Assembly (NCBI GenBank): GCA_024742415.1
Contig: JANSYN010000011.1
Coordinates: 1-64,000 of the forward strand
DNA length: 64,000 nt
Source: Gammaproteobacteria bacterium
GTDB lineage: Bacteria > Pseudomonadota > Gammaproteobacteria > Pseudomonadales > Halieaceae
Direction of reading: 5' to 3'
The translations under genes were made by a program, and so were the position numbers. This document shows, in pieces, positions 33,051 through 51,223 of the stretch; within the stretch, counting starts at the first letter, position 1, and each line of letters opens with the position of its first letter. The notes under the pieces were generated by a model. It saw only the letters and a list, made by a program, of their open reading frames with translations. It did not search any database and was not told the origin of the DNA.

Positions 33051-33306
33051 GTGCGTCTCCTTCGGAATGGGCGCCGCAGCACCCGTTGCGGAGCCCCGAT
33101 TATAGGCCTTGCCGCGCGCTGCAACCAGCCTACTTTGCGCGGCGCGGGCTTACCCCTGCACTGCCTACGCGGGGCGGCGCAAGGACTACGCCTGCGTCTT
33201 TGGCACTTTTTGGCCACGGGGGTGCACGTCGCGTACAAACGCCATAGAATGTGCAGGCATTGCGCCCCTTCGCGCGCTATTACACCACGCTACCAGAGGC
33301 CACACC

Positions 33307-34374
33307 TTGCGCGCTTACCTGTTTGTTCTGCTGCTACTGCTCGTTATCTTTGGTGGTATCGGAGGTTACCTCTACAACAAGTTTACAACGCTTGCGAACA
33401 CGGATTTCACGCCCCCGCCGATAACCATCGCTGGTGGCACTGCACGCAACGCCGTGTGGCCAACGCGCCTGGAAGCAGTGGGTACGATTCGCGCCGCCAG
33501 GGGGGTTGAGCTAAGCGCCGAGACCGCCGGCGAGGTGATCTCCGTGCACGCACGCTCGGGCGAGCAGGTGCGCGCCAACCAATTGCTCGTGACACTAAAC
33601 GACAGTGTCGAACAGGCCAGCCTCGAGCGCCAGGAGGCGAACCTTACCCTGGCCGAAATACTGCACAAGCGCGATGCCAGCCTGATCAGGCAGAACTCCA
33701 TTCCGCAGAGCCAGTACGATCGCTCACGCGCGGACCTCGACAGCGCCATCGCACAACTGGCTGAAACCAGGGCACGCCTGGAAAATAAACGCATTGTTGC
33801 ACCGTTTGCGGGAACAACAGGCATCATGCGTGTGAAAGTCGGCGACTATGTAGACACCGGCGCACCCATCACCACCTTGCAGGATCTGAGCGAGCTGGAG
33901 GTCGACTTCTCGGTCCCGGCGCGACATTATCCGAATCTTCGCCCTGGCCTTACCATTACCGTCACCACCGATGCCTTTCCCGACAAGACGTTTTCAGCCA
34001 CGCTGGAGGCACTGGATGCCCGCGTGGATGCAGGAACGCGCAACCTTGCCCTGCGCGCCGTCCTGGCAGACACCCAGGGGCTGTTGCCAGGCATGTTTGC
34101 GCGACTTGTCATCGACCTGGACCAACCACAAAAAGTCGTTACCGTTCCGGAGACGGCGGTGTCCTATTCCATACACGGCGACACCGTCTGGGTGTTGCGC
34201 CAGGGCATTGGCGAGACAACCGCGCACCCGCGTGTGGTAGAGGCTGGCCAGTCGCGTGATGGGGAGGTCGCTATACTGTCCGGCCTGCGTGGCGGCGAGT
34301 GGATTGTCACCGTTGGCCAGAACAAACTGCATCGCGGCGCGCGTGTCATGCTCGACGACGACACGGACCTGTAA
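33307..34374 (+). CDS. RND efflux periplasmic adaptor (membrane fusion protein)
   Basis: 355 residues from a TTG at 33307 (reading LRAYLFVLLL), with AGAGG upstream. The first ATG in frame is almost 200 bases earlier and gives a Cys-rich, unlikely extension. A membrane helix is followed by the lipoyl half motif GVELSAETAGEVISVHARSGEQVRAN, a hairpin and the second lipoyl half RIVAPFAGTTGIMRVKVGDYV. It joins the inner-membrane pump to an outer-membrane channel. The stop is directly followed by the ATG of the pump. Confidence 0.88.
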   Translation: MRAYLFVLLLLLVIFGGIGGYLYNKFTTLANTDFTPPPITIAGGTARNAVWPTRLEAVGTIRAARGVELSAETAGEVISVHARSGEQVRANQLLVTLNDSVEQASLERQEANLTLAEILHKRDASLIRQNSIPQSQYDRSRADLDSAIAQLAETRARLENKRIVAPFAGTTGIMRVKVGDYVDTGAPITTLQDLSELEVDFSVPARHYPNLRPGLTITVTTDAFPDKTFSATLEALDARVDAGTRNLALRAVLADTQGLLPGMFARLVIDLDQPQKVVTVPETAVSYSIHGDTVWVLRQGIGETTAHPRVVEAGQSRDGEVAILSGLRGGEWIVTVGQNKLHRGARVMLDDDTDL

Positions 34375-37300
34375 ATGCGCGCCTTCACAGACGTTTTCAT
34401 CCAGCGCCCCGTACTTGCCATTGTCATCAGCAGCCTGTTGCTGCTGCTCGGCAGCACTGCCCTGAGTCGCATCAATCTGCGCGAGTTCCCCGAACTTGAG
34501 CGCAGCGTCATTTATGTCGAGACCCTCTACCCGGGCGCCAGCGCACGTACCGTGCAGGGTTTTGTCACTACCCCTTTGCAGATATCCATCGCCGGTGCGC
34601 GCGGCGTTGAGTACATGACCTCCAGCAGCAACCCCGGCATCTCCGAGATCGAGGTCCACGTGCGCCTGGGCGAGGACAGCAGCGCGGTACTGTCTGAAGT
34701 GATCGCGAAGGTCAATGAAGCGCGCGGCGAACTGCCCCGCGATATCGAAGACCCGGTGGTCACCAACGCCAGCGGTGGCGATGCCATGATGTACCTGGCG
34801 TTCTACAGTGACCAGATGAGCCCCTACCAGATTACCGACTACCTGGCGCGCTCCGTGCAACCAGAGCTGGCCACGCTCGACGGCGTGGGCCGCGCCCGTA
34901 TCTTTGGTCGCTACCTGGCGATGCGGGTCTGGCTCGACCCTGTGCGCATGGCCGCCTATGGCGTGACGGCCACAGACGTCAGCGCCGCCATCCAGCGCGA
35001 CAACTTCGTTGCGACTTCCGGTTCCACTGAAGGCAACCTGGTGCAGGCCACGGTAGATGCGCGCACAGACATGCAAAGCCCCGCAGATTTCGAGAGCATG
35101 GTCATCCGCCAGATGGGCGAGGAAAGAGTCCGCCTGGGCGATGTTGCCACTGTTGAAATGTCCGCCGAGTCCACCCAGCTCAAAACGCTGTCCAGCGGGC
35201 GTGACGCGGTGTTTATGTCGATATCGCCAACGCCGGATGCCAATCCGCTGGAGGTCTCACGCAACGTGCATGCGGCACTGCCGAGAATCAACGCCACGTT
35301 GCCTGCCGACATGGAACTGCTGCTCGACTGGGACGGCAGCGTGGTCATCGACGAGGCGCTCAAGGAAGTCATCATCACCTTGATAGAGGCCTCCCTCATC
35401 GTGATCCTGGTGATTTTCCTGTTCCTGGGTTCACTGCGTGTCGTACTTATTCCGCTGGTGGCTATACCGCTGTCACTGATTGGCGTTGTTTTCCTGATCC
35501 TGCTGATGGGCTTTTCCCTCAACTTGCTGACCCTGCTCGCCATGGTCATCGCCATTGGCCTGGTCGTGGACGATGCCATTGTTGTTGTCGAGAACGTGCA
35601 CCGACATATCGAGTTAGGCGCAACGCCGCGCGAGGCCGCCCTCAAAGGCGCGAGGGAAGTCGCAATGCCCGTGGTTGCAATGACGCTTACCCTGGCTGCG
35701 GTCTATGCGCCCATTGCGTTCATCGGAGGGCTGACCGGCGCCCTGTTCACCGAGTTCGCCCTGACACTGGCCGGTGCTGTACTGATTTCAGGCATCGTCG
35801 CGCTCACCCTTAGCCCGATGATGTGTTCGAAAGTACTCAGCGACCAGGCGCACCAGGGTCGCCTCGAAAACTGGCTGGATGCACGCTTTGAATGGCTGAC
35901 CGCACGCTACCAGAGACTGCTGGGTAAATCCCTGTCGCACCGCGGCCCGGTGATACTGTTTGCGGCCGTCATCCTGGCCAGCCTGCCGCTGCTGTTTACC
36001 CTGACACAGCAGGAACTGGCCCCGGAGGAAGACTCCGGTGGCGTGTTTGTGACCGGTACCGCACCGCGTCATGCCAACCTTGAATACACCGATTACTTTC
36101 TCAACGAGGTCGTCGAAATCTGGAAAGGCATCCCGGAGTTTTCGCACTCATGGCAGGTGATCTTTCCCTCCACCAACTTCGGCGGGATCACACTACACCC
36201 ATGGTCCGAGCGCGAACGCACGCAACAGGAAGTGCAGGTGGAGTTCCAGAAGAAACTCGGCGGTATTGCAGGCATGGAAGTGTTTTCCTTTGGCGTACCG
36301 CCGCTGCCCGGCTCCGATGCCGGCTTGCCCGTAAGCTTTGTGGTGGCCTCTACAGCGGATTACACCGAGGTCATGCGCGTCGGAGAGGCACTTCTGGCTG
36401 CCGCGCGTGAATCGGGGCTGTTTATTTTTGTCACGCAGACGCTGGATTTCGATCGCCCAGAGGTCGGGGTAAACATTGACCGTGAACGCGCGGCGCAGTT
36501 GGGTATCTCCATGCAGCAGATCGGCCAGACCCTGTCCGTGATGCTCGGTGAGGCCGAGATCAATCGCTTCAACCTGAAGGGCCGCTCCTACAAAGTCATC
36601 GCCCAGGCTGAACAGGGTTTCCGCCTGACCAAGGAAGAGCTCGAAAAGTACTACCTGCGCACGCAGAGCGACCAGCTGGTGCCCATGTCTACCGTCATCT
36701 CCCTGGACTCCAGCATTGAACCCAACGCGCTGACCCAATACCAGCAACTCAACAGCACCGTGATACAGGGCATTATGATGCCGCCCAACAGCCTGGGCAC
36801 GGGCCTGGAGTTTCTGCGTAGCAAGCTGGCAGAGATTGCGCCTCGCGGAATCCGCGCGGGCTACACCGGCGCTTCCCAGCGTTTTATGCAGGAAAGCGCA
36901 TCTTTCCCACTGCTGTTTACGCTGTCCATGATACTGATTTTCCTGGTACTGGCCGTGCAATTTAACAGCTTCCGCGATCCGCTGGTGGTACTCATCAGCG
37001 TTCCCCTTTCTATTTTCGGTGCGGTGGTGCCCATGGCGCTGGGCTTTGCAACGCTCAACATTTATACGCAGATCGGTTTGTTGACACTAATCGGACTGAT
37101 CAGCAAGCACGGTATATTGATCGTTGAGTTTGCCAATAAACTCGCCCTGCAGGGTCTGCCACAGCGCGAGGCGGTGGTGCAGGCTGCCGCGCTGCGCCTG
37201 CGGCCGATTCTCATGACGACGTTTGCAACTGTGCTGGGCGTGTGGCCGCTGGTCATTGCCAGCGGTCCGGGCGCGAACAGCCGTTTCAGTATCGGCCTGA

Positions 37301-37470
37301 TGATCACCTGCGGAATGCTGGTGGGAACCCTGTTTACGCTGTTTGTACTGCCGACGTTTTATCTACCGTTTAGCAAGCGTGGCAAGGCACAACAACACGC
37401 GGCTGAACCGCTGCAGGACGACAACACCAACGCGACGCTGCCGCCAGAAGCGCCCGCCAAACCGGCGTAA
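34375..37470 (+). CDS. RND efflux pump, AcrB/MexB type
   Basis: 1031 residues, standard for a hydrophobe/amphiphile RND exporter, with 12 membrane helices and two large periplasmic loops. The first helix begins FIQRPVLAIVISSLLLLLGS. The proton-relay Asp pair is present in GLVVDDAIVVVENVHRH. The C-terminal half has LIGLISKHGILIVEFANK. Its ATG begins on the base after the adaptor stop, so the two are coupled. No outer-membrane TolC-type gene is beside it, so it presumably uses one from elsewhere. Substrates unknown. Confidence 0.93.
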   Translation: MRAFTDVFIQRPVLAIVISSLLLLLGSTALSRINLREFPELERSVIYVETLYPGASARTVQGFVTTPLQISIAGARGVEYMTSSSNPGISEIEVHVRLGEDSSAVLSEVIAKVNEARGELPRDIEDPVVTNASGGDAMMYLAFYSDQMSPYQITDYLARSVQPELATLDGVGRARIFGRYLAMRVWLDPVRMAAYGVTATDVSAAIQRDNFVATSGSTEGNLVQATVDARTDMQSPADFESMVIRQMGEERVRLGDVATVEMSAESTQLKTLSSGRDAVFMSISPTPDANPLEVSRNVHAALPRINATLPADMELLLDWDGSVVIDEALKEVIITLIEASLIVILVIFLFLGSLRVVLIPLVAIPLSLIGVVFLILLMGFSLNLLTLLAMVIAIGLVVDDAIVVVENVHRHIELGATPREAALKGAREVAMPVVAMTLTLAAVYAPIAFIGGLTGALFTEFALTLAGAVLISGIVALTLSPMMCSKVLSDQAHQGRLENWLDARFEWLTARYQRLLGKSLSHRGPVILFAAVILASLPLLFTLTQQELAPEEDSGGVFVTGTAPRHANLEYTDYFLNEVVEIWKGIPEFSHSWQVIFPSTNFGGITLHPWSERERTQQEVQVEFQKKLGGIAGMEVFSFGVPPLPGSDAGLPVSFVVASTADYTEVMRVGEALLAAARESGLFIFVTQTLDFDRPEVGVNIDRERAAQLGISMQQIGQTLSVMLGEAEINRFNLKGRSYKVIAQAEQGFRLTKEELEKYYLRTQSDQLVPMSTVISLDSSIEPNALTQYQQLNSTVIQGIMMPPNSLGTGLEFLRSKLAEIAPRGIRAGYTGASQRFMQESASFPLLFTLSMILIFLVLAVQFNSFRDPLVVLISVPLSIFGAVVPMALGFATLNIYTQIGLLTLIGLISKHGILIVEFANKLALQGLPQREAVVQAAALRLRPILMTTFATVLGVWPLVIASGPGANSRFSIGLMITCGMLVGTLFTLFVLPTFYLPFSKRGKAQQHAAEPLQDDNTNATLPPEAPAKPA

Positions 37471-37507: not shown

Positions 37508-39055
37508 TTACTTCACTGGTTTGTCTCGGCTATCACTGTATTGTTCTACCAATCGGCGCTTGTACAGCTTGCCGTTATCCATACGCGGCAGCTCCGGATG
37601 GAAGTCCAGCGAGCGAGGCATCTTGACGCTGGATATCTTCTCGCGCAGCCACTCCAGTATTTCAAAGGCTGTCTCGTCGGTCGCATCTGCCCAGTTCATT
37701 GGCTGCACCACCGCCTTTACCTGCTCACCAAACTCCTCATGGGGTATGCCAAAAACGGCGACATCGGCAATCTTGTCATGACCAATCAGGGCGTTTTCAA
37801 TCTCTTGCGGATAGATATTGACGCCGCCACTGATGATCATGAAGTTTTTGCGATCGGTCAGGTACAGGAAACCGTCTTCATCCACGTAGCCAACGTCCCC
37901 GCAAGTTGCCCAGCCTTTGTCGTTGAAGGCCTCAGCAGTCTTGGTGGGTTCATCAAAGTACTCAAAGGTGGTTTGCGGGCCGCCAAAGTACACTGTGCCG
38001 ATCTCGCCAGGGGGCAGTTCATTGCCATCGTCGTCCACGATATGCAGTTCACCGACCAGTGCAGGGCCCACCGAGCCCTTGTGGGTCAGCCAGCTTGCCG
38101 AATCAATCAGGGTAAAACCGATGCCCTCGCTGGCCGCGTAGTATTCAAAGATAATCTCACCCCACCACTGGATCATCTGGTCTTTCACATCCACCGGGCA
38201 GGGGGCCGCCGCATGCAACGCGACCTGCATTGAGCTCAGGTCGTAGGCTTCTCGCACCTCTTGCGGCAGCTTCAGCATGCGAATGAACATGATAGGCACC
38301 CACTGGCTGTGAGTAACGCGGTGCTCCTCGATCAACGCCAGCGATTGCTGTGCATCGAAGTGCTCCATCACAACAATGGTGCCGCCGTTGTAGGTCGTCA
38401 TCAGGCAATAATGCAAGGGGGCGGCGTGGTACAGCGGCGCGGGCGATAGATAGACGGTCTCTTCGCCAAAGCCAAATACCGGGCCGATGGTTTGCGCGAT
38501 CATCGGCGGCGTGTCGACGTCATGCGCAGGCGCTGCTACAAAAATCCCTTTGGGCTTGCCTGTCGTACCCGAGGAATACAACATCGGCTGTCCGTTGCCC
38601 TGGTCATCAATCGGGGTGTCGGGCTGGGCGTCGATCGCCTCTTCCCAGGATTCATAGCCCGGCTTGATGCCGCCGACCATATAAAAGTGCTGTACGGCGG
38701 TTTCGGTCTCGCGCAATTCCTGCGCCACCTTCGACAGTGCCAGCGAACCTATGAACAGCCTGGCCCCGCAGTTCTGCATGATGTAGGCGGTTTCTTCACG
38801 CGTCAGGTGCGTGCTTACCGGCGTATAAATCAGCCCTGCGCGCTGCGCTGCCCACACGATTTCGAGAAAATGCCGGTTGTTTTCCAGCATCAGGCCGATA
38901 TGGTCCCCCGCCTGAAGCCCCAGGGAACGAAACAGCTGCGCGCCCTGGTTGGAGCGCTCATCCAGTTGTCTGAATGTCACAATCTCACCACTGGCGCCCA
39001 TGATAAAGGCCGGCTTATGGGGATAGGTCTGGGCTGTGATACTGGGATGGGGCAT
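37508..39055 (-). CDS. AMP-dependent acyl-CoA synthetase
   Basis: 515 residues of the ANL superfamily. The phosphate loop is MLYSSGTTGKPKGI, then YYAASEGIG, GDVGYVDEDGFLYLTDR and the C-terminal Lys in LPRMDNGKLYKRR. It should activate a fatty or other carboxylic acid to acyl-CoA with ATP. The substrate pocket is not recognisable by eye. It converges on the RND pump gene with 37 bases between. TesB, next on the same strand after a short gap, would do the opposite reaction. Confidence 0.92.
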   Translation of the reverse strand: MPHPSITAQTYPHKPAFIMGASGEIVTFRQLDERSNQGAQLFRSLGLQAGDHIGLMLENNRHFLEIVWAAQRAGLIYTPVSTHLTREETAYIMQNCGARLFIGSLALSKVAQELRETETAVQHFYMVGGIKPGYESWEEAIDAQPDTPIDDQGNGQPMLYSSGTTGKPKGIFVAAPAHDVDTPPMIAQTIGPVFGFGEETVYLSPAPLYHAAPLHYCLMTTYNGGTIVVMEHFDAQQSLALIEEHRVTHSQWVPIMFIRMLKLPQEVREAYDLSSMQVALHAAAPCPVDVKDQMIQWWGEIIFEYYAASEGIGFTLIDSASWLTHKGSVGPALVGELHIVDDDGNELPPGEIGTVYFGGPQTTFEYFDEPTKTAEAFNDKGWATCGDVGYVDEDGFLYLTDRKNFMIISGGVNIYPQEIENALIGHDKIADVAVFGIPHEEFGEQVKAVVQPMNWADATDETAFEILEWLREKISSVKMPRSLDFHPELPRMDNGKLYKRRLVEQYSDSRDKPVK

Positions 39056-39138: not shown

Positions 39139-39978
39139 TTAACGGAAGCGCATGACACCCTGCTGCATGGTGGTGGCGACCAAACGGCCCTGACGTGTGT
39201 AGAAACTGCCGCGCGCAAGGCCACGTCCGGCGCCGATGCGCTCCGCTTCTACAATATGCAGCAGCCACTCATCCGCGCGAAACCCCTCATGGAACCACAG
39301 CGCGTGATCGAGACTGGCAACCTGAAAATCCTTGCCGGCGAAGTGACGACCGTGGGCAATCAGGCAAACGTCGATCAGGAAGGCATCCGACATGTAACTC
39401 AGCAAGGCCTCGTGCAGACCACGCTCATTGCCCACGGGGCCGGTGGTTTTCATCCATGCCTGCAGTATGGGTTCGCGGGGTACGGGGTTTTCCCAGTTGA
39501 CCGGTTCAACCACCCGTATATCGAGGTCTTCGCCCGTGGTGATCATAAAGCTTTCATCCAGATTGCCCGCCTCCAGGCTCAGTTCACGCTCATTGGGCAA
39601 TGACTCCGGGGGCGGCACGGCCGGCATGTCGGGCTGGTAGTCATCACCGCGCGAGGGCGCCTGGAACGACATGGAACTCACCAGTATTGGCTTGCCGTCC
39701 TGCAGGGCGACCACCCGTCGCGAACTGAAACTGAAACCATCGCGGGCGCGCTCTACCTCGAATTCAATGGGCTTGGACGGATTGCCGGCGCGCAGGAAGT
39801 AGGCATGCTGGGAGTGGATATCACGGCCATCCTCGACCGTTTCTGCCGCAGCACTCACGCACTGCGCCAGCACCTGCCCGCCATACACACGAAATGCACC
39901 GGGGTGCATGTTTTGCCCCGTAAAACGATCGGCGCCCAGTGCTGTTGGGCGAACCACCTTGATTAACTGGTCAAGCAT
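39139..39978 (-). CDS. tesB: acyl-CoA thioesterase II (TesB-like)
   Basis: 279 residues from the ATG at 39978, which has AAGGG upstream; an ATG at 40017 would add 13 residues but lacks a ribosome site. It is a double hot-dog protein. Active-site segments are present: SYMSDAFLID (Asp), ASLDHALWFH and the Gln in TTMQQGVMRFR. It hydrolyses medium- and long-chain acyl-CoA to free acid. It is divergent from the D-glutamate operon, and the 128-base spacer holds both promoters. Confidence 0.9.
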   Translation of the reverse strand: MLDQLIKVVRPTALGADRFTGQNMHPGAFRVYGGQVLAQCVSAAAETVEDGRDIHSQHAYFLRAGNPSKPIEFEVERARDGFSFSSRRVVALQDGKPILVSSMSFQAPSRGDDYQPDMPAVPPPESLPNERELSLEAGNLDESFMITTGEDLDIRVVEPVNWENPVPREPILQAWMKTTGPVGNERGLHEALLSYMSDAFLIDVCLIAHGRHFAGKDFQVASLDHALWFHEGFRADEWLLHIVEAERIGAGRGLARGSFYTRQGRLVATTMQQGVMRFR

Positions 39979-40106
39979 ACACACCAAACCCTTGCTAGCA
40001 GGTGCGCCATTATCCATATTTGCACGGCGCTGCCAATGCGTGATGCACTGCGCGCCGGCTCGCAGATTTGCTATGGTGTGGCTCTGGATTGCAACGGGAC
40101 AGGACC

Positions 40107-40877
40107 ATGACGCCCGCAGAACTGCGGCAACGCATTCGCACAGGCGAACACAGCGGCACGACTTCCGGACTCGCACCGGGATTCGTCCAATGCAACCTGG
40201 TCATCCTGCCAGCCCGCGCTGCGCAGGATTTCCATGAATTCTGCCGGCTTAACCCCAGGCCCTGCCCCCTGATTGCCGTGGGTGAGCCCGGTGACCCGGC
40301 CTTGCCCGCGCTGGGCGATATCGACCTGCGCTATGATCTGCCTGGCTACCGCGTATTCAGGCAGGGCGTGGTGACTGACGACGTCGCTGAAATCAGTGCG
40401 CTGTGGCGCAACGACCTGGTCAGTTTTGCCCTGGGCTGCTCCTTTTCATTTGAAGAGGCTTTACTCGATGATGGGCTGGAGGTGCGCAATATCAGCGAAG
40501 GGGTGAACGTTCCCATGTACCGTACCAACATTGACTGCTCGCCGGCAGGGCCATTTGCCGGGAAGTTGGTGGTCAGCATGCGCCCCTTCCCCATCGACCA
40601 GGTGGAGCGCGTGGTGGCAATCTGCTCGCGCTTTCCACAGGTGCACGGCGCGCCCATTCATGTGGGGGATGCGCACGAGATCGGCATCCACGACCTGCAG
40701 GAGCCGGATTTCGGCGATGCCGTAACCATCAACCCCTGTGAAGTGCCGCTGTTCTGGGCCTGTGGGGTTACCCCCCAGCTGGCACTGGAGGCAGCTCGCC
40801 TGCCACTGGCTATTACCCACCGCCCCGGCTGTATGCTGGTCACAGACATTACCAACGCCAGCCTGGCGGTGCGCTGA
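40107..40877 (+). CDS. DUF1445 protein, D-glutamate cyclase N-terminal-like
   Basis: 256 residues beginning at the ATG at 40107 with ACAGGA upstream. It belongs to the DUF1445/putative hydro-lyase family: [13 protein letters not shown] at the start, [34 protein letters not shown] and a final [13 protein letters not shown]. In animals this domain is the N-terminal half of mitochondrial D-glutamate cyclase, which turns D-Glu into 5-oxo-D-proline. Here the gene opens the operon that also carries the other half (43342) and 5-oxoprolinase, so a role in that chemistry is likely. It could act alone or need the DUF4392 partner. Confidence 0.88.
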
Positions 40878-40994
40878 TGCCAACACCCGCGACCGTTGCC
40901 GCCCCCGCCCGTGTGCCCTTGCGCCCACGGCGACTTGATGGTGACCGAACATGCACATTGACACTGCCCCCGTTGACGCAGGCCGGAGCGACGC

Positions 40995-41726
40995 ATGCTG
41001 TTGAACTGTGACCTGGGCGAGAGTCATGGCGAGCGTCGCGTTGGCGACGATGCCGCGGTAATGCCGTACCTGGACCAGGCCAATATCGCCTGTGGGTTTC
41101 ACGGCGGTGACCCGCTCACCATCAGCAATACGCTACGCCTTGCAATGCAGTACGGTGTGGCGATCGGCGCGCACCCCTCGTATCCGGACCGGGAAGGCTT
41201 CGGCAGGCGCAGCATGACGCTGGATGAAGACACTATGATTGCCACCCTGCATTACCAGATCAGTGCTCTGGACGGTATGGCCCGCTGCGCCGGGACAGCG
41301 CTGCAACACGTAAAGCCCCACGGGGCGCTCTACAACGACATGATGGCCAGTGAGGTGCTGCTGAATGTGATCATGCGGGCCATCGCTGCGTTTCCCACGC
41401 CGTTGCCGCTGATACTGCAAAGCACCCCGCGCTGGCGCGATCACCTTGCGCTGGCCGACCGCGTGGGCATTGCCGTGCAGTTTGAGGTGTTTGCCGATCG
41501 GCGCTACTTGTCCTCGGGCGCTTTGCTGCCCAGAAGCGAGGCCGGTGCCGTACTGAACGCCAACGAGGCGCTGCGGCAGGCGCGGCAATTACTGGACTCT
41601 CAACAGGTGACCTGCACCGACGGCAGCCTGCTGCACCTGCAGGCCGACACGCTGTGCATACATGGTGATCATGCCGAGGCCGCGCGCTGCGCAGCACAGA
41701 TCCGATCACTGATGCAGGCGCGGTAG
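40995..41726 (+). CDS. pxpA: 5-oxoprolinase subunit A (LamB/YcsF family)
   Basis: 243 residues with the whole LamB/YcsF pattern: LNCDLGESHGE at the N-terminus, IACGFHGGDP, IGAHPSYPDREGFGRR, HVKPHGALYND and EVFADRRYLSSGAL. Together with PxpB and PxpC it opens 5-oxo-L-proline to L-glutamate using ATP. The start has GGAG nine bases upstream. The stop is followed at once by the PxpB ATG. It comes 117 bases after the DUF1445 gene. Confidence 0.94.
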   Translation: MLLNCDLGESHGERRVGDDAAVMPYLDQANIACGFHGGDPLTISNTLRLAMQYGVAIGAHPSYPDREGFGRRSMTLDEDTMIATLHYQISALDGMARCAGTALQHVKPHGALYNDMMASEVLLNVIMRAIAAFPTPLPLILQSTPRWRDHLALADRVGIAVQFEVFADRRYLSSGALLPRSEAGAVLNANEALRQARQLLDSQQVTCTDGSLLHLQADTLCIHGDHAEAARCAAQIRSLMQAR

Positions 41727-42410
41727 ATGGACGTTCGCCTGCTATGTGTTGGCGCCGACGCCATCATGCTCTATGCACAGGCGCCACAGGGCGGTGCCGT
41801 CGCCTTTATCGGCGCACTGGCCGATAGCATCGAACGCGAGCTCGGTGGTGCACTTGTTGACCTGGTGCCGTCCTATACCTCACTGCTGGTGATCTACGAT
41901 CCACTGCAGTCATCGCATACCGCGATGGCGCGGCAGTTGCGACAGCTTGCCCGCAATGCCGCAGTGGCCCAGGAGCACGCCGGCAAGACCGTGACGCTGC
42001 CCGTGTACTATGCTGCGGAGGCGGGGCAGGACATCGAGCGTCTGGCAGACAACGCCGGCCTGGGCGTCGACGAGGTCATCGCACTGCACAGTTCCCGCAA
42101 GTACCGTGTTTACGCCATCGGTTTTGCGCCAGGATTTGCCTACCTGGGTGACGTCGATGAACGCATTGCCTGCCCGCGACTGGCCACACCGCGGCTGCAG
42201 GTACCGCGCGGCAGCGTGGCAATTGCAGAGCGACAAACGGCAGTCTATCCCGCCGTTTCACCGGGCGGCTGGAATCTGCTCGGGCGCTGCCCGACAACCC
42301 TGTTCAATCCACACAGCAAACCTCACATGCCAGTTGCGGTAGGCGATAATGTCCGCTTTGAGCCCATTACCCGCACCGAGTTTCTGCGCATGGGGGGTGA
42401 GCTGGAATGA
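41727..42410 (+). CDS. pxpB: 5-oxoprolinase subunit B (KipI-like)
   Basis: 227 residues, allophanate hydrolase subunit 1/KipI family. Conserved segments are ADSIERELGGALVDLVPSYT near the N-terminus, YRVYAIGFAPGFAYLG in the middle and VSPGGWNLLGRCPTTLFNP near the end. It forms a complex with PxpC and receives the substrate from PxpA. Its ATG directly follows the pxpA stop. Its last four bases (ATGA) overlap the pxpC start, indicating translational coupling and a fixed ratio of subunits. Confidence 0.94.
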   Translation: MDVRLLCVGADAIMLYAQAPQGGAVAFIGALADSIERELGGALVDLVPSYTSLLVIYDPLQSSHTAMARQLRQLARNAAVAQEHAGKTVTLPVYYAAEAGQDIERLADNAGLGVDEVIALHSSRKYRVYAIGFAPGFAYLGDVDERIACPRLATPRLQVPRGSVAIAERQTAVYPAVSPGGWNLLGRCPTTLFNPHSKPHMPVAVGDNVRFEPITRTEFLRMGGELE

Positions 42411-43345
42411 GCCTGCGGGTTGTTCGGCCGGGCGTGCTCAGCCTGCTGCAGGATGGCGGGCGACGCGGCGTACACCGACTTGGCCTGGCAACGGCGGGCG
42501 CACTGGACCACGAGGCGTACCTGTACTGCAACCGCCTGCTGCAAAACCCCGCGCACAGCACCGCCATCGAAATTACAGCCGGCGGCCTGCAGCTGCAGGC
42601 ACAGGTTGACACCTTTATCTGCCTGACCGGCGCAGCGATGCCACTGAGCATCAATGATGCCGCCTGCGATGGCTGGACCGTACACAGGGTTTGCGCCGGC
42701 GACAGCATTCATGTCGACTATGCCGTCAGTGGTGCGCGCGCCTATCTGGGCGTTGCCGATGGTTTTGCCGTTACGCCGGTGTTTGGCAGTACCGCCACGG
42801 TCGTTCGTGAGGGCCTGGGAGGACTGACTGGCGCAGCACTGGCAGCAGGCGATGCTCTGCCCTGCCCTGCCATCACGCGCCGCCGGCGCCTGCAGCTGAG
42901 CGTCGCGGAGCGTCCCCGCTACCAGCGCCAGCTAACCGTGCGGGTTGTACCCGGGTACCAGCAAAAACACTTCAGCCGCATCGAGCAGCGCCGCTTTTTT
43001 GGTGCGCCCTTCGAGGTCAGCCCCCACAGTGATCGCATGGGCTATCGACTCATCGGGCCGCCCGTCGCCTGCGATATCACGGCCATACCTTCTGAGGGTA
43101 TCTGTGCAGGAGCCATTCAGATTCCACCCGACGGACAGCCCATTGTGCTGCTGGCAGATCGCCAGACCATCGGCGGCTACCCCAAGATCGGTGCGGCGCT
43201 GGGTCTGGATACCGCGCGCATGGCCCAGCTCACTGCGGGCTGCGTTGTTCACTTTGCACCCATCACGCCGGCTACCGCGCGCCGGGCGCTGCAACTGGCA
43301 CAACGCTTCACTTACCAGCGCCTACTGCAGGAGATACCCGCATGA
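42407..43345 (+). CDS. pxpC: 5-oxoprolinase subunit C (KipA-like)
   Basis: 312 residues, allophanate hydrolase subunit 2/KipA family (biotin-dependent carboxyltransferase-like). Marks are VVRPGVLSLLQDGGRRGVH at the N-terminus, GAYLGV-like ARAYLGVADGFAV, VREGLGG and a C-terminal RVVPG followed by FEVSPHSDRMGYRLIG. It is the third subunit of ATP-dependent 5-oxoprolinase. It overlaps pxpB and the DUF4392 gene by four bases each, so the whole block is translated as a unit. Confidence 0.94.
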   Translation: MSLRVVRPGVLSLLQDGGRRGVHRLGLATAGALDHEAYLYCNRLLQNPAHSTAIEITAGGLQLQAQVDTFICLTGAAMPLSINDAACDGWTVHRVCAGDSIHVDYAVSGARAYLGVADGFAVTPVFGSTATVVREGLGGLTGAALAAGDALPCPAITRRRRLQLSVAERPRYQRQLTVRVVPGYQQKHFSRIEQRRFFGAPFEVSPHSDRMGYRLIGPPVACDITAIPSEGICAGAIQIPPDGQPIVLLADRQTIGGYPKIGAALGLDTARMAQLTAGCVVHFAPITPATARRALQLAQRFTYQRLLQEIPA

Positions 43346-44184
43346 ATGAGCAACAGCTCAGCGAAGCGATTGAGCAACTGCTGGTGGAACGCAATCCGCG
43401 CAATATGCAGCTTGCGCGCACCGCCCTGCAACCTGGCTATTTCGTGCGCGCCGCTCGCATGCTGCGTGGCCTGGATGGCTGCGTCATTATCGGTACCGGC
43501 TTTCCCGTTACCGGCACGTTCGAAACAGACGGGCCGGTGGGCGCGATCATCCTCTACAACGCGCTACGGTCACTGGGCGCGCAACCGCTACTGGCCTGTG
43601 GGCCACCGCTGTCAGATGCCCTGTGTGACGACTTCAATGTACTGACACTCACCGCGCGCACCTACACGCACGCCCTGCAGGAGGCCACACGCATGCTCGC
43701 CGAACACGCACCGCAAGCGGTTATTGCCATAGAACGGCCCGGGCTTGCCGCCGATGGCCGCTACTACAATATGCGCGGCGTGGACATCAGCGAACGCTGC
43801 TACTACTTTGATCCGATCATGACGCAGGCGAGCTGCCCGACGATCGCAATAGGCGACGGCGGCAACGAATGCGGCATGGGTAACATCAGCGCCACGCTGG
43901 CAGGGCTGGACATCAACCCTTCCATTACGCCCTGTGATGAGTTGCTGGTCGCCGATGTTTCCAACTGGGGCGCCTACGGGCTGCTTGCGCTGCTCGGGCA
44001 CTGGGCGCGCAGTGACCTGCTGGCCGGCATCACACCGGTAGAAATACTCAATTATCTGTTAATCCGTGGCAGCGTGGATGGCGTGACCGGCCAAAGCACA
44101 CTCACCGAAGATGGCATTGAGGCTCGCGTCGGGCTGGACGTCATTCGCGCCCTGCGCGTGCTGGTAAATTCGCTGGAAGATTAA
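43342..44184 (+). CDS. DUF4392 protein, D-glutamate cyclase C-terminal-like
   Basis: 280 residues of the DUF4392/GLUCM_C family. Visible marks are GCVIIGTGFPVTGTFETDGP, ERPGLAADGRYYNMRG, AIGDGGNECGMGN and VADVSNWGAYGL. In animal D-glutamate cyclase this is the C-terminal half and the likely catalytic part; the N-terminal half is DUF1445, here a separate gene at 40107. Expected reaction: D-glutamate to 5-oxo-D-proline. Its ATG overlaps the pxpC stop by four bases. It is followed after 34 bases by a D-amino acid transaminase. Confidence 0.9.
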   Translation: MNEQQLSEAIEQLLVERNPRNMQLARTALQPGYFVRAARMLRGLDGCVIIGTGFPVTGTFETDGPVGAIILYNALRSLGAQPLLACGPPLSDALCDDFNVLTLTARTYTHALQEATRMLAEHAPQAVIAIERPGLAADGRYYNMRGVDISERCYYFDPIMTQASCPTIAIGDGGNECGMGNISATLAGLDINPSITPCDELLVADVSNWGAYGLLALLGHWARSDLLAGITPVEILNYLLIRGSVDGVTGQSTLTEDGIEARVGLDVIRALRVLVNSLED

Positions 44185-44218
44185 ACTCACCCTCCCATTT
44201 TCCGTTACAATCGCTGCC

Positions 44219-45076
44219 ATGAATACGGTGTACCTCAACGGCAGCTACCTACCCATGCACGAAGCGCGGATCTCCCCGATGGATCGCGGTTTCCTCTTTG
44301 GCGACGGCGTCTATGAAGTGATCCCTTCCTACGACGGCGCAATGGTGGGGTTTCGCCAACACATGCAGCGAATGCAGGGCGGACTGGACGCCATCGAGTT
44401 GCGCTATACACTGGATCTGGAGCAGTGGCGGATCATCATCGAGCAGCTCATTGCCCGCAACGGTGGCGGCAACCTGGGTATCTACATGCACATCAGCCGC
44501 GGCGCCGACACCCGCCGCCAGCACGCCTACCCCGAGGGCATTGCACCTACTGTTTTTGCCTTCGCCTATGCTATCGGGCCTTCGCCGCCGGCCGACAAAT
44601 CACTGGCCAAAACCTACACTGCTGCTACCGCCGAAGACCTGCGGTGGAAGCGCTGCAATATCAAGACAACCGCTTTGCTGGGTAATGTCATGCATATGCA
44701 GCATGGCGTAGCGCGCGGAGATGGCGAGACCATTCTGTACAATGCCGCGCAGGAACTCACCGAAGCGGCCGCATGCAATGTCTATATCGTCAAGGCCGGC
44801 GTGGTGGCCACACCGCCGCTCGACCACCAGATCCTGCCCGGAGTCACCCGTCAGCTGCTGATGGAAATCTTGCGCACCCACAGCGCTATCCCTGTGCAGG
44901 AACGCATCATCACGCTGGCTGAGCTGTACGATGCTGATGAAGTCTGGCTGAGCAGTTCCAGCAAAGACATCGCACCGGTCCTCAAGATAGATGGCAGAAC
45001 GATCGGCAACGGCGAGATCGGCGATGTCTGGCTCGCCGCGCAAACACTGTTCAGCCAGCACAAGTTTGACCTGTAG
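44219..45076 (+). CDS. dat: D-amino acid transaminase (class IV)
   Basis: 285 residues, fold-type IV PLP enzyme. The Schiff-base Lys is K149 in RCNIKTTALLGN. FLFGDGVYEVIPSY and HISRGADTRR fit the D-amino acid branch rather than the branched-chain one. AAQELTEAAACNVYIV lines the phosphate side. The usual reaction is D-Ala plus 2-oxoglutarate to pyruvate plus D-Glu, and it is reversible. Beside an alanine racemase (12 bases downstream) and D-glutamate cyclase halves, a D-Glu/D-Ala role is strongly suggested. Confidence 0.9.
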   Translation: MNTVYLNGSYLPMHEARISPMDRGFLFGDGVYEVIPSYDGAMVGFRQHMQRMQGGLDAIELRYTLDLEQWRIIIEQLIARNGGGNLGIYMHISRGADTRRQHAYPEGIAPTVFAFAYAIGPSPPADKSLAKTYTAATAEDLRWKRCNIKTTALLGNVMHMQHGVARGDGETILYNAAQELTEAAACNVYIVKAGVVATPPLDHQILPGVTRQLLMEILRTHSAIPVQERIITLAELYDADEVWLSSSSKDIAPVLKIDGRTIGNGEIGDVWLAAQTLFSQHKFDL

Positions 45077-45088
45077 CGATTACTGACA

Positions 45089-46189
45089 GTGACTCGACCT
45101 ACCCAGGCAACTATCAACCTGCAGGCGCTGCGACACAATACCGCCCACGCGCGCACCCTGGCAGGCACGGCGCGTCTGCTCGCCGTAGTCAAGGCCAACG
45201 CCTATGGACATGGCGCCGCTAAGGTGGCTGTGGCCATCGCAGAGCAGGTCGATGCATTTGGTGTTGCCTGTCTTGAAGAGGCGCTGCAGCTGCGAGCGGC
45301 AGGTATCACGCGGCCAATCCTTCTGATGGAAGGCGTATTCGAGGCACAAGAGCTGGACAACGCCGCGCGCGAGCAGTTGTGGCCAGCCATCACCAATGAG
45401 CAGCAGCTGGCCTGGCTTGAGCAGGCGCAGCTGTCGGCACCGTTACAGGTCTGGCTCAAGGTCAACACCGGCATGAACAGGCTTGGCATAGCACCTGCCC
45501 AGGTCACTGCTTTCCTGCAACGCATCTACGACTGCCCACAGGTGATCGACCACAGTGTCGCACCCGTGGTGGTGTTTACCCATCTATCGAGCGCTGACAA
45601 CCTGCACAGCGATGCAACGCTGCAGCAGCTGAAACAGTTTGCTGAGCTGCCGCTGGCAAGCGCAGCGGTAGCACGCAGTGCCGCCAATTCCGGTGGTCTG
45701 CTGCAGTGGCCGGCCAGTCACTACGACTGGGTGCGGCCCGGCTACATGCTCTACGGCAACTCACCACTGGACGCTGCACACAGCAATACCGCGGCCCTCA
45801 AGCCCGTCATGACGTTAACCTCCCGGATTATTGCCCTGCGCAACATCGAAGCGGGTGAGGCCGTGGGCTATGGCGGCACCTTCGTGGCGCAGCGCCCCAC
45901 TACGATCGCCTGCGTTGCCATCGGCTATGGCGACGGCTATCCGCGCCAGGCAGTGAATGGCACCCCCGTGCTGGTTAACGGCCAGCGCGCAGCCCTGGCT
46001 GGCAGGGTCTCCATGGACATGCTCATGATCGACGTTACCGATATCGCCAACGTGGCGCTGGGCACTCCCGTGGTGCTATGGGGCGATGGGCTTCCGGTCG
46101 ATGAGGTGGCCCGCTACGCCGGCACCGTGGGCTATGAGCTCCTCACTCGCCTGCCAGCGCGACCCGCGCGCGTTGTGGTCGAAGACTAA
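45089..46189 (+). CDS. alr: alanine racemase
   Basis: 366 residues from a GTG at 45089. The PLP Lys is K35 in AVVKANAYGHG, the second catalytic Tyr is in AIGYGDGYPRQ, and RVSMDMLMIDV lies in between as usual. It interconverts L- and D-alanine. Here it stands directly after the D-amino acid transaminase in the D-glutamate operon. It may feed D-Ala to the transaminase or drain D-Ala made from D-Glu to L-Ala. Whether this is the only alanine racemase in the genome cannot be seen. Confidence 0.94.
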   Translation: MTRPTQATINLQALRHNTAHARTLAGTARLLAVVKANAYGHGAAKVAVAIAEQVDAFGVACLEEALQLRAAGITRPILLMEGVFEAQELDNAAREQLWPAITNEQQLAWLEQAQLSAPLQVWLKVNTGMNRLGIAPAQVTAFLQRIYDCPQVIDHSVAPVVVFTHLSSADNLHSDATLQQLKQFAELPLASAAVARSAANSGGLLQWPASHYDWVRPGYMLYGNSPLDAAHSNTAALKPVMTLTSRIIALRNIEAGEAVGYGGTFVAQRPTTIACVAIGYGDGYPRQAVNGTPVLVNGQRAALAGRVSMDMLMIDVTDIANVALGTPVVLWGDGLPVDEVARYAGTVGYELLTRLPARPARVVVED

Positions 46190-46231: not shown

Positions 46232-47752
46232 ATGCGCCCCGAAGACACCGACTGTTCCCTGCTGCATCACATCCTCGCACTGCAGGCAGGCCTGCGGCCA
46301 GATGCGCCGGCGCTGTGGTGGCAGGACACCCCCATCAGCTTTGCCCAACTGTACCGGCGCGTTAGCCAGTTGTCACACGCATTGGCAGGCATCGGTACCG
46401 CCGGCGACCGCATTGGCCTGCTGTCGTGGAACTGCCCCGAGTTTATCGAACTGATGTATGCCGTGCCCGCAGCGGGTCGTGTTCTGGTACCACTGAATGC
46501 GCGACTGGCGCCGGCCGAATGGGCCGACCAGCTGCAGCGCACAGACTGCCAGTGGCTCTTTGGCGATGCGGCCCTGCTGCAACGTCTGCGCGATGCTGAT
46601 TGCCCCGCAGCAGCCGTGCGCATGATTCCCCTGGACAGCCACTACCACGACTGGCTGCAGGCAGCACAGCAGCGCACGCCGGCACCCGTAGACCCCGAGG
46701 ACATTGCCTGGATACTGTTTACCTCCGGTTCAACAGGCAAGCCCAAAGGCGCGATGCTCAGCCATCGGGGGTTTATGGCAGGGCTGCGCTCGGCAGCCCA
46801 CGCGCGTCCAGTTGCACCGGGTGATCGCTTTTATTATCCGTTCCCCCTGTTTCACGTCGCCGCTCACAATGTGCTCTTGCAGCATCGCTATGGCGCCTGC
46901 GTAGTACTGCCGCGCGGCTTCGATGCCGCCGAGACTATCCATGCCTGCCATCGACTGGGCGTGACCAGCATGTCGCTGGCCCCTACCATGCTTGCCATGC
47001 TGCTTGACCACCCCGATTTCAGCCCGGCGGTACTGTCGAGTGTGCGCAGCATCGGCTACGGCGCATCGGCCATGCCGGTGTCGCTGTTGCAGCGGCTGCT
47101 GAGCACTACCGACGTCGGCCTTTGCCAGAGCTACGGCATGACCGAACTTTGCGGCAGCGTGGCATTCCTGACCGCGCAGGATCACCAACTCGCACTGCAG
47201 AAAAGCGCACTACTGCAATCGGTAGGACACGTCCTGCCCACTGCCCGGGTGCGTCTTGTGGATGACAACGGCGCGGACTGCCCGCCAGGCGTTGCCGGTG
47301 AAATCACGGTGCAAGCTGCGCAACAGTTCAGTGGCTACTGGGGTGATGAAGCGGCCAGTGCACAGGCGCTGCGCGATGGCTGGCTGCACACGGGCGACAT
47401 TGGTCGCTTTGACAGCGCCGGCTATCTCTACATCGTTGACCGCAAAAAGGACATGATTATCAGCGGTGGCGAAAACGTCGCATCACGGGAAGTAGAAGAA
47501 GTTTTACGCACTCACCCTGCCGTGCGCGACTGTGCCGTTATCGGCCTGCCGGATGCTCGCTGGGGTGAAACGGTGGCGGCGGTTATCGTCGCACAGGCGG
47601 CCACCGATAACGCCTCCCTTGAGAAGCACTGTCGCGCGCGGTTGGGTGCCTACAAAACACCGCGTCACTGGTTCCAGGCCTCTGCGTTACCACTTAACGC
47701 CGCGGGCAAGGTCGACAAACCCCTGCTCAGGCAACGCTACGCAACGCAGTGA
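46232..47752 (+). CDS. AMP-dependent acyl-CoA synthetase
   Basis: 506 residues of the ANL superfamily with ILFTSGSTGKPKGAMLSH, CQSYGMTELCG, GDIGRFDSAGYLYIVDR and the C-terminal Lys in LNAAGKVDKPLLR. It makes an acyl-CoA or acyl-adenylate. It follows alr by 42 bases on the same strand, so it may be read through from the D-glutamate operon, but no link in chemistry is evident. Substrate unknown. Motif spacing is standard and no frameshift is seen. Confidence 0.9.
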   Translation: MRPEDTDCSLLHHILALQAGLRPDAPALWWQDTPISFAQLYRRVSQLSHALAGIGTAGDRIGLLSWNCPEFIELMYAVPAAGRVLVPLNARLAPAEWADQLQRTDCQWLFGDAALLQRLRDADCPAAAVRMIPLDSHYHDWLQAAQQRTPAPVDPEDIAWILFTSGSTGKPKGAMLSHRGFMAGLRSAAHARPVAPGDRFYYPFPLFHVAAHNVLLQHRYGACVVLPRGFDAAETIHACHRLGVTSMSLAPTMLAMLLDHPDFSPAVLSSVRSIGYGASAMPVSLLQRLLSTTDVGLCQSYGMTELCGSVAFLTAQDHQLALQKSALLQSVGHVLPTARVRLVDDNGADCPPGVAGEITVQAAQQFSGYWGDEAASAQALRDGWLHTGDIGRFDSAGYLYIVDRKKDMIISGGENVASREVEEVLRTHPAVRDCAVIGLPDARWGETVAAVIVAQAATDNASLEKHCRARLGAYKTPRHWFQASALPLNAAGKVDKPLLRQRYATQ

Positions 47753-48925: not shown

Positions 48926-49159
48926 TACGCGTTTCCCGGTCTGCGTACAGTGCGTACCAACATAGAGAAATCGACGCAAAAAGCAACGCTGCGGGCAGAC
49001 ACTGGCGTATTGCCCGGTTTGCCTACCGGCGCGCCACGCTGCTGCGCTAAGATGCTGATACAATTGCCACGCCCGGGGTGCTCGTTATGGCCACGGGTGG
49101 TAGGGGGTGCGCCGATAAGTGTAGATTTCAGCCATCAGGTTATTCACGGGAAGTTCGCA

Positions 49160-51223
49160 ATGAAACGACTGCTAAGCCTGGCGAAAATGATCGCCTGGTC
49201 GCTACTGGCAATTCTGCTGTTACTTGCAGCAGCCGGTTTTTGGCTGCGCTATGAATTTGCCCGCGTCAGCAGCGAAACACTCGAGCCTTTTGACTGGCGC
49301 ACCGTAGAGGTCGCATCGCTGTTCCCCGATCGCGAGGCAGCCGACTCCTGCGCAGAACAACACCCGCACAAACGCGCCTGGTTCGGCGCCTTGCATGTGC
49401 ACACGGCTGCAAGCTATGACGCCACCTCTTTCGGTTCTACGGTTACGGCCGACCAGGCCTATGCGTTTGCCAGGGGTGAACCACTGGCCATCGCGCTGCG
49501 TGGCGATCCACCAGATTTCGAGGCGCCCACGGTGCGCATCAGCTCGCCGCTGGACTTTATGGCCGTGACCGATCATGCCGAATCGCTGGGCGAGGCGCAA
49601 CTGTGCTATGACCCACGTGTCCATGCCTATGATGCCCTGGTGTGCAAGCTGTATCGCGGCGATGTCAGGCTTCCCGTCGAGGAGCGACTGCAACCCATCA
49701 TGCGCCTGGTCAGCTTCGCCATTTTCGGCACACAACGATCCATGCGCATTTGCGGCGAGGACGGTTCGCGCTGTCGCCTGCGCGCTGCAAACGTCTGGAA
49801 AGACAGCCAGCGCAGCACGCAACAGTGGCAGGACGCCTCCGCGGCCTGCGAGTTCACGACCTTCCACGCCTATGAATACACGCTGGCCGAAGACTCCAGC
49901 AACCTGCATCGCAATGTGATCTTCAAAAACGACACGGTGCCGCAGAACCTGCTCAGTGCCAAGGAGGCGCCTACACCGCAGCAGTTATGGGAGTGGCTCG
50001 ATGCAACCTGTATCGAAGGGAATCCCACTTGTGATGTGTTGGCGATACCCCACAACAGCAACTGGAGCTCGGGCAGGATGTGGTTTCCCTACAGCAACCT
50101 CGATCTGCCGCTTGCCGAACAACAGCGCCTGGCAACACTGCGCGCAAGGCTGGAACCGCTCGCCGAGATCAACCAGGTCAAGGGCGACTCGGAATGTCGC
50201 AACGGCATTGCCAGCGTCATCGGCGCGCCGGATGAGCACTGTGATTTTGAGAAGCTGCGCCCACCGCGCGAGGCAATCCAGGACTGCGGCGAATCCCAGG
50301 GGAGCCAGGGCATGCTGCTTTCGGGCTGTGTTTCGCGCTACAGCTATGTTCGCTACGCGCTGACCGCCGGACTTGCCGAACACGACAAGCTGGGCATCAA
50401 TCCCTTCAAACTCGGCATCGTTGCTGCCACAGACACCCACAATGGCACGCCGGCTGCCGGCCTGGAAAGCACACCCACAGGCTCCCATGGCTATGACCGC
50501 ACGCGAGAGAACCGCCTGCTGGGAGAAATAGATGTGCCGGGCAAGGTCGCCAAGGGCTCACCGGTGCGCTACAACCCCGGCGGCATCGCGGGCGTGTACG
50601 CGCATGAGAACAGCCGCGCCGCGCTGTTTGATGCCATGCGCAATCGCGAGACCTTTGGCACCAGCGGGCCGCGCATTACCCCGCGCTTCTTCGCCGGCTG
50701 GCAATTGCCCGAGGACATCTGCTCCCAGTCAGACTATCTCGCCACGGCGTATGAAAAAGGCGTACCCATGGGCAGGGACCTGAACGTACCACCGGCCAAC
50801 TGGACAACCAGCCCGGTGTTTTTGGCCAGCGCCGCTGCAGATGCGCGCAACGGTAGTAACTTGCTGCAGCGCTTGCAGATCGTCAAGGGCTGGATCGACG
50901 CACACGGGCAGACACACCAGGCAGTTTATGATGTTGCCGGCGACCCCAACAACGGTGCCAGCGTAGATCCTGCCACCTGTGCCACCTCAGGACCGGGCTT
51001 CAGGCAACTGTGCACCACCTGGCGCGACCCCGACTTTGACCCGGCGACCGCCGCGGTGTACTACCTGCGCGTTCTGGAGAACCCCAGTTGCCGCTGGAGT
51101 GCCCACGATTGCCTGGCCATTGAACCCTCCCAACGCCCTGCCAGTTGCTCGGATGCAGATATTCCCTGGGCGATTCAGGAACGCGCGTGGACCTCACCGA
51201 TCTGGTTCCATCCACAGTTCTAG
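49160..51223 (+). CDS. DUF3604 protein, membrane-anchored
   Basis: 687 residues from the ATG at 49160, with GGGAAG upstream. A membrane helix (WSLLAILLLLAAAGFWL) is followed by a large outside domain of the DUF3604 family. Metal-type motifs LHVHTAASYDATSFGS and DFMAVTDHAESLG resemble the PHP phosphoesterase fold, with a later VAATDTHNG and AIPHNSNWSSG. Many Cys (at least ten) suggest disulfides in the periplasm. DUF3604 has no proven function; metal-dependent hydrolysis is an inference from the His/Asp pattern. The frame is open further upstream but is not protein-like. Confidence 0.85.
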   Translation: MKRLLSLAKMIAWSLLAILLLLAAAGFWLRYEFARVSSETLEPFDWRTVEVASLFPDREAADSCAEQHPHKRAWFGALHVHTAASYDATSFGSTVTADQAYAFARGEPLAIALRGDPPDFEAPTVRISSPLDFMAVTDHAESLGEAQLCYDPRVHAYDALVCKLYRGDVRLPVEERLQPIMRLVSFAIFGTQRSMRICGEDGSRCRLRAANVWKDSQRSTQQWQDASAACEFTTFHAYEYTLAEDSSNLHRNVIFKNDTVPQNLLSAKEAPTPQQLWEWLDATCIEGNPTCDVLAIPHNSNWSSGRMWFPYSNLDLPLAEQQRLATLRARLEPLAEINQVKGDSECRNGIASVIGAPDEHCDFEKLRPPREAIQDCGESQGSQGMLLSGCVSRYSYVRYALTAGLAEHDKLGINPFKLGIVAATDTHNGTPAAGLESTPTGSHGYDRTRENRLLGEIDVPGKVAKGSPVRYNPGGIAGVYAHENSRAALFDAMRNRETFGTSGPRITPRFFAGWQLPEDICSQSDYLATAYEKGVPMGRDLNVPPANWTTSPVFLASAAADARNGSNLLQRLQIVKGWIDAHGQTHQAVYDVAGDPNNGASVDPATCATSGPGFRQLCTTWRDPDFDPATAAVYYLRVLENPSCRWSAHDCLAIEPSQRPASCSDADIPWAIQERAWTSPIWFHPQF

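Follow-up and report, generated by a model that had tools for sequence, protein, structure and literature searches.

We analyzed a stretch of 64,000 nucleotides (hereafter the window: positions 1 to 64,000 of contig JANSYN010000011.1, assembly GCA_024742415.1) from a gammaproteobacterium of the family Halieaceae, order Pseudomonadales. It carries an operon of seven genes, DUF1445, pxpA, pxpB, pxpC, DUF4392, dat and alr, which we consider on the whole a probable module for the supply and disposal of D-glutamate (D-Glu) in a lineage without the glutamate racemase MurI. The two halves are held with different confidence. Alanine racemase (Alr) and D-amino acid transaminase (Dat) very probably supply the D-alanine (D-Ala) and the D-Glu of the cell wall without MurI. 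The removal of D-Glu through 5-oxoproline by the products of DUF1445, pxpABC and DUF4392 is somewhat favored by the families to which these proteins belong. Gene content, gene order, conservation, the absence of a MurI match and the single Alr match were observed directly.

The need for D-Glu and its sources were examined in the genome that contains the window (99.65% complete, 27 contigs). No match to PF01177, the MurI family, was found in this genome; as a control, the same search gave a match in 10 of 14 well-known genomes. A canonical MurD is present, well over the cut-off, so that the cell should need D-Glu. In the proposed supply, Alr would make D-Ala, Dat would move the amino group of D-Ala to 2-oxoglutarate to yield D-Glu, and MurD would add this D-Glu to the wall precursor. 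The product of Alr would also feed D-Ala-D-Ala. No alanine racemase match other than the operon alr was found in the genome, so this gene should serve the wall. This argues against a catabolic operon, in which the cell would feed on D-amino acids and wall peptides, Dat and Alr would run toward degradation, and the wall would receive its D-Glu from a MurL-type epimerase or a DapF- or MetC-type racemase. We regard such an operon as improbable, also in view of the distributions described below.

The distribution of these genes was then analyzed in 140 genomes of the family. With the MurI model TIGR00067, 10 of the 140 genomes have a match at E <= 0.001 and a single one, G138 (locus L002), has a match over the cut-off. 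Loss of MurI to an assembly gap is unlikely, 139 of the 140 genomes being without MurI over the cut-off. A strong Dat match was found in 129 of the 140 genomes; that of G098 is a fragment (E 2.8e-37). Among the 78 genomes with a completeness of 90% or more and a contamination of 5% or less, G084 alone has no strong Dat match; this genome is 94% complete and its alr match starts at position 6 of the contig, so that the absence is probably due to the contig edge. Alr matches (E <= 1e-20) are present in 129 of the 140 genomes and in all 78 good ones; 127 of these 129 genomes show a single match row. Co-directional dat and alr, with alr second and no more than 600 bases away, occur in 127 genomes out of the 129 that have an alr match, and in the remaining two (G008 and G084) the alr match starts at the end of a contig. 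DUF4392 was found in 114 of the 140 genomes and is followed by dat, on the same strand and within 600 bases, in 112 of the 114. The exceptions are G083 and G098; in G098 the contig starts with the DUF4392 match. In 16 family genomes dat-alr is present without a DUF4392 match. The tie between DUF4392 and dat speaks against a housekeeping repair system, another improbable alternative, in which PxpABC clears 5-oxo-L-proline formed spontaneously, the DUF1445 and DUF4392 proteins assist it in a way unrelated to D-Glu, and dat and alr are mere neighbors.

MurI is usually considered nearly universal and a target for drugs. In an even sample of 390 genomes from the order, MurI was counted as present when TIGR00067 matched at E <= 1e-20 (282 genomes, 278 of which pass the curated cut-off), 20 weaker matches being counted as absent. 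Dat was counted as present when the window Dat matched at E <= 1e-38, a criterion that also admits stand-alone Dats from outside the operon clade. The counts, which like those of the family and like the Fisher tests made on them are not corrected for kinship, are distributed as follows: 49 genomes have both MurI and Dat, 233 MurI without Dat, 91 Dat without MurI, and 17 neither. Dat is thus far commoner where MurI is absent (91 of 108 genomes) than where it is present (49 of 282), which again disagrees with a catabolic operon. After removal of the own family the four figures are 49, 233, 73 and 17. In ten families (f6, f8, f15, f38, f39, f40, f41, f44, f46 and f47), members with Dat and no MurI coexist with members with MurI and no Dat, in a tally that covers the genomes with an assigned family and leaves out the 17 that have neither. 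Because ten families hold both types, the swap between MurI and Dat probably happened more than once. As for DUF4392, PF14336 is over the cut-off in 54 of the 390 genomes; a Dat match accompanies it in 53 of the 54, which speaks against the repair alternative, and MurI is absent in 39 of the 54. Of 219 genomes sampled from the class, the own genome alone has PF14336, so that DUF4392 is uncommon across the class as a whole.

The anatomy of the operon was examined at 60 Dat loci, selected to cover genera and families and thus non-random. The order DUF1445-pxpA-pxpB-pxpC-DUF4392-dat, often followed by alr, is found in ten families (f1, f2, f10, f16, f27, f31, f38, f39, f41 and f47). That the seven genes are unrelated and adjacent by chance would be compatible with the gaps of 117 and 34 bases before pxpA and dat, which leave room for separate promoters, and has next to no probability; we reject it, the conservation counts showing a gene order far beyond chance. 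Departures from the full set are of several kinds. In four loci (L077, L078, L101 and L102) the module contains pxpA without adjacent pxpB and pxpC, and two Pseudoalteromonas records show the same arrangement. The pxpA-only modules (the four named, L136 and L137) fall into three separate lineages. A different function for pxpA at such loci is weakened by the presence of a PF02682 gene elsewhere in all four genomes tested (G001, G004, G142 and G185), with a weaker match in G001 and G004. In two loci of family f6 (L116 and L133), DUF1445-DUF4392-dat stands without neighboring pxp genes, an arrangement that does not fit the repair alternative well, though a gene of the PxpB family is present elsewhere in both genomes. 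In twelve loci (L117-L125 and L128-L130), dat occurs in the stretch without any of the other six genes.

In seven of the relatives' loci (L076, L083, L090, L091, L092, L093 and L135), a gene of the LysR family is inserted between DUF4392 and dat. All seven inserted genes have PF00126 and PF03466 over the cut-off, and the copy of L092 lies on the opposite strand. Their position suggests that D-Glu, D-Ala or 5-oxoproline exerts control in the lineages concerned, and it is the kind of arrangement known from inducible pathways, as a catabolic operon would have it. A glycoside hydrolase family 3 gene before DUF1445 in two Pseudoalteromonas records, with a dipeptidase gene near in one of them, points in the same direction.

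Seven of the 60 loci (L095, L096-L099, L112 and L127) contain dat-alr without the other five genes; L095 belongs to a genome of 1.3 Mb (G179). Their history was considered with a tree of 59 Dats, the window Dat and 58 of 62 others (L105, L107, which is in two pieces, L113 and L115 being left out), built with a quick method and rooted at the midpoint only. The 47 operon-type Dats all fall on one side of a single branch (SH-like approximate likelihood ratio test 97), and the Dats of the dat-alr loci nest among them. L096-L099 stand beside the full-set locus L100 (92), L112 beside L114 (85) and L095 beside full-set loci of f41 (94); the join of L127 was flagged as unsure by the tree program. Read most simply, DUF1445-PxpABC-DUF4392 was lost in these lineages and dat-alr was kept. 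Such a loss is expected if dat-alr is essential and the rest dispensable. The retention of dat-alr without the other five genes, in one case in a 1.3 Mb genome, argues against a catabolic use of the operon.

To extend the comparison to named organisms, one genome per species was scanned for loci with DUF4392, a choice which makes the scan uninformative on loci without this gene. The best 80 of 551 loci were kept, 50 of them with full flanks. Nearest to the window are loci of Haliea, Halioglobus, Seongchinamella and other Halieaceae. Further loci among these 80 come from SAR92, Aestuariicella, Dasania, Neptuniibacter, Amphritea, Marinobacterium and Oceanobacter, and others from Colwellia, Pseudoalteromonas, Rheinheimera, Thiothrix, an Osedax symbiont and other organisms. 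The presence of the five-gene core (DUF1445, pxpABC and DUF4392) in Colwellia and Thiothrix is a further argument against a chance neighborhood. Among the 50 loci with full flanks, pxpA was found in 50, DUF1445 in 47, pxpB and pxpC in 47, co-directional dat in 45 and alr in 24. Within loci gathered in this way, the most constant part is the five-gene core, which dat usually accompanies; alr is present in about half. A LysR match was found in 17 of the 50 loci, which again resembles an inducible catabolic pathway, and in four the five-gene core occurs with neither a dat nor a LysR match, as the repair alternative would allow.

The earlier note had taken the operon for a D-glutamate module, to be checked by a search for murI and by the conservation of the cluster in relatives. 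The search gave no MurI match, and the cluster is conserved according to the family synteny counts, the loci across the order and the named genomes. The note's proposal is thereby supported in part. Its idea of a supply of D-Glu without MurI is now the better-founded half, with dat-alr and not the cyclase as the probable source, and a return to L-Glu through PxpABC is the weaker half.

The positions of the seven genes and their best Pfam matches are given below.

Table. The seven genes of the operon in the window, with Pfam scores
Gene or protein	Position	Strand	Pfam match
DUF1445 / D-Glu_cyclase protein (YcsI-type; equivalent to the N-terminal half of animal D-glutamate cyclase)	40107..40877	+	PF07286, 218 bits
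pxpA (LamB/YcsF; 5-oxoprolinase subunit A)	40995..41726	+	PF03746, 283 bits
pxpB (carboxyltransferase C/D; 5-oxoprolinase subunit B)	41727..42410	+	PF02682 CT_C_D, 222 bits
pxpC (carboxyltransferase A/B; 5-oxoprolinase subunit C)	42407..43345	+	PF02626 CT_A_B, 266 bits
DUF4392 / GLUCM-like_C protein (equivalent to the C-terminal half of animal D-glutamate cyclase; relative of Mn-dependent TON_0340)	43342..44184	+	PF14336, 203.7 bits
dat (canonical-type D-amino acid transaminase)	44219..45076	+	PF01063 Aminotran_4, 174 bits
alr (alanine racemase)	45089..46189	+	PF01168/PF00842, 227/150 bits

All seven proteins are above the cut-off of their named families. Positions and matches agree with the seven co-directional genes described in the earlier note, and the mid-operon junctions, announced there as 0, 4 and 4 bases, were measured as 0, -4 and -4; the complete series of gaps is 117, 0, -4, -4, 34 and 12 bases. 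DUF1445 starts with ATG at 40107 and alr with GTG at 45089. Predicted promoters and terminators were no more frequent than in shuffled sequences.

To refine the functional assignment of the proteins, we examined curated models, solved structures and predicted folds. Alr is well over its model (TIGR00492, 387 bits for a cut-off of 168). For Dat, the best matches in the PDB are D-amino acid aminotransferases and the nearest NCBIfam models are those of D-amino-acid transaminase (DAAT). The canonical DAAT motif comprises, in bsDAAT numbering, F26, Y31, [VA]33, [KRPT]35, xYxQ at 88 and RxH at 98 (PMC10003956). In an alignment of 26 Dats (the window protein and 25 of 62), F27, Y32, V34, P36, Y89, R100, H102 and K149 of the window Dat are invariant; in the xYxQ region Y89 is kept with H where Q is expected, and R100xH102 is kept. 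K149 is presumably the lysine that binds pyridoxal phosphate.

The three 5-oxoprolinase subunit genes are adjacent in the window. PxpA passes the subfamily model NF003816 (299.9 bits, cut-off 213) and misses three equivalog models; PxpB passes the PxpB equivalog, with 157.1 bits against TIGR00370 (cut-off 145.55), and PxpC passes TIGR00724 (238.8 for 230.2). The two cyclase domains, PF07286 and PF14336, are encoded by separate genes with pxpABC between them. The DUF1445 protein matches the "putative hydro-lyase" model NF003969 (385 bits, cut-off 324), and its best solved relatives are the UPF0317 proteins 3DB9 and 2PIF (phmmer to 3DB9, E 5.8e-81). Its predicted model, with a mean predicted local distance difference test score (pLDDT) of 90.9, likewise matches its own family (2PIF and 3DB9); a weak further match is the NrpR-like protein MJ0159, with template modelling (TM) scores of 0.41/0.47. 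No NCBIfam model matched the DUF4392 protein, which is related by sequence and by fold to TON_0340 of Thermococcus. Its predicted model (mean pLDDT 95.2) has a confident match to TON_0340 and to nothing else. We considered a MurI-like racemase and rejected it: 15 of the 16 Foldseek matches at E <= 0.001 are TON_0340, the remaining one is a Rossmann-type reductase (TM 0.28), and no Asp/Glu racemase is present among the 50 matches listed. A first alignment contained the window protein and 24 of 42 DUF4392 proteins, with invariant acidic residues; a second set contained the window protein and 33 of 80 DUF4392 proteins, and 30 DUF1445 proteins were aligned as well. In the 34 DUF4392 sequences of the second set E61 and D172, which align with Glu59 and Asp157 of TON_0340, are invariant, as are D63, E131 and E176. 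Some of the last three residues may be metal ligands.

TON_0340 is reported as a weak Mn-dependent phosphatase, whose Mn-dependent activity is abolished by changes of Glu59 or Asp157 (PMC5132392). The window protein shares its fold, its sequence relationship and the residues aligned to these two positions; it differs in that we propose a role in a cyclase. The animal D-glutamate cyclase (DGLUCY, C14orf159, 9030617O03Rik) consists of DUF1445 and DUF4392 domains (PMC5339696). Both domains are present in the operon, as two genes separated by pxpABC, whereas they are fused in animals. Split homologs of the cyclase have been listed for gut bacteria (PMC11580864). By analogy, the split cyclase, probably Mn-dependent, would act on D-Glu that is in excess or recycled and yield 5-oxoproline, whose ring PxpABC would reopen with ATP to give glutamate. 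As without MurI D-Glu cannot be racemised back to L-Glu, such an outlet would make sense.

Several observations weigh against a module of supply and disposal. The most serious concerns stereochemistry, which by comparison with the known enzymes is the weak point of the disposal half: the product of the animal cyclase is given as 5-oxo-D-proline, with no L-Glu formed, in the account of PMC5339696, and the work on PxpABC in PMC13274462 concerns 5-oxo-L-proline. If PxpABC opened the D form it would merely remake D-Glu. Either PxpABC here accepts 5-oxo-D-proline, which would be a wasteful loop, or it serves the L form and shares only the chemistry, or one of the proteins inverts the ring form, a case taken up below. 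PxpC remains below its equivalog model NF045499 (220 for a cut-off of 500), and Dat below the D-amino-acid transaminase cut-offs (TIGR01121, 213.7 for 277.45; NF005209, 230.5 for 320). The own genome has two weaker relatives of Dat (three matches at E <= 0.001, one at 1e-38). One locus (L080, genome G149, family f11) consists of pxpABC-dat-alr without a DUF1445 or DUF4392 match, and no PF14336 match was found in its genome. The 117-base gap before pxpA and the LysR gene before dat in some relatives argue against a single transcript in all cases. Besides the kinship within the genome counts, 17 of the 108 MurI-lacking genomes of the order are without a Dat match at the threshold, and the Dats of many others are stand-alone and fall outside the operon clade; the mutual exclusion of MurI and Dat therefore speaks for Dat and not for the operon. 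Finally, 15 of the 54 order genomes with DUF4392 also have MurI, as a catabolic operon would lead one to expect, so that the module is not solely a substitute for MurI.

A bolder possibility, which we hold to be unlikely though worth stating, is that DUF1445, DUF4392 and PxpABC form an ATP-driven, one-way converter of D-Glu to L-Glu via 5-oxoproline. One of the DUF proteins, or PxpA, would then invert or relax the stereocenter of the ring form. If true, the converter would perform the back-reaction of glutamate racemase without that enzyme in MurI-less bacteria.

Parts of this arrangement have counterparts in known systems. We take the order of the Bacillus subtilis operon to be pxpA-ycsG(mntG)-ycsI-pxpB-pxpC-kipR, YcsI presumably being the DUF1445 protein. 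This operon, which combines pxpABC and ycsI with a Mn importer, serves the use of 5-oxoproline (PMC10448178), a precedent for the repair alternative. PxpABC and YcsI share one operon there as here; the B. subtilis operon differs by carrying the Mn importer and KipR, and DUF4392, dat and alr are not named in the portion of PMC10448178 that we consulted. The use of Mn by TON_0340 and the Mn importer beside pxpABC-ycsI make a suggestive link to this metal. For the supply of D-Glu, Dat is described as one of two general sources (PMC8788868). The window system resembles this Dat-dependent route by its canonical DAAT residues and by Alr beside Dat. It differs in that dat stands in an operon with genes for D-Glu disposal, and in that no other known route was found across the family, MurL, DapF- and MetC-type routes not having been searched. 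In Xanthomonas, MurD2 and MurL allow wall synthesis without MurI and are found where Dat is also absent (PMC8788868); wall synthesis without MurI is common to both cases, and the presence of Dat distinguishes ours. A Mariana Trench survey treats Alr, MurI and Dat as suppliers of the wall, and attributes the largest contribution of DAT in Tara Oceans data to Gammaproteobacteria (PMC12363236); "D-glutamate cyclase" and "Halieaceae" are absent from its main text. In the open-access literature that was searched, PMC6131576 and PMC12344293 included, neither the seven-gene operon nor a family-wide absence of MurI in Halieaceae was found described, most subscription papers lying outside this scope. 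Dat-based supply and pxpABC with ycsI are thus already known separately, and the literature searched did not yield a case in which the two are merged in MurI-less lineages.

The surroundings of the operon were also considered. A gene for an AMP-binding acyl-CoA ligase (46232-47752, +) starts 42 bases past alr; among the 60 loci of relatives it stands beside alr in the two loci of the same genus only (L109 and L111). A second AMP-binding acyl-CoA ligase lies upstream of the operon (37508-39055, -). This upstream ligase, in some cases with a TesB-type thioesterase (39139-40014), adjoins the operon in many family loci. Farther away, the window contains an HlyD-type adaptor followed by an AcrB-type efflux pump gene (33109-37470, +) and a gene for a large DUF3604 protein without assigned function (48950-51223, +).

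Taken together, MurI seems to be missing in a marine family and in members of ten further families of the same order, which have a transaminase instead; this points to how MurI-less marine bacteria build their walls. The operon links wall metabolism to two orphan families that form a single fused protein, D-glutamate cyclase, in animals. It raises a sharp chemical question, namely which stereoisomer is handled at each step, and offers a testable role for several poorly known proteins.

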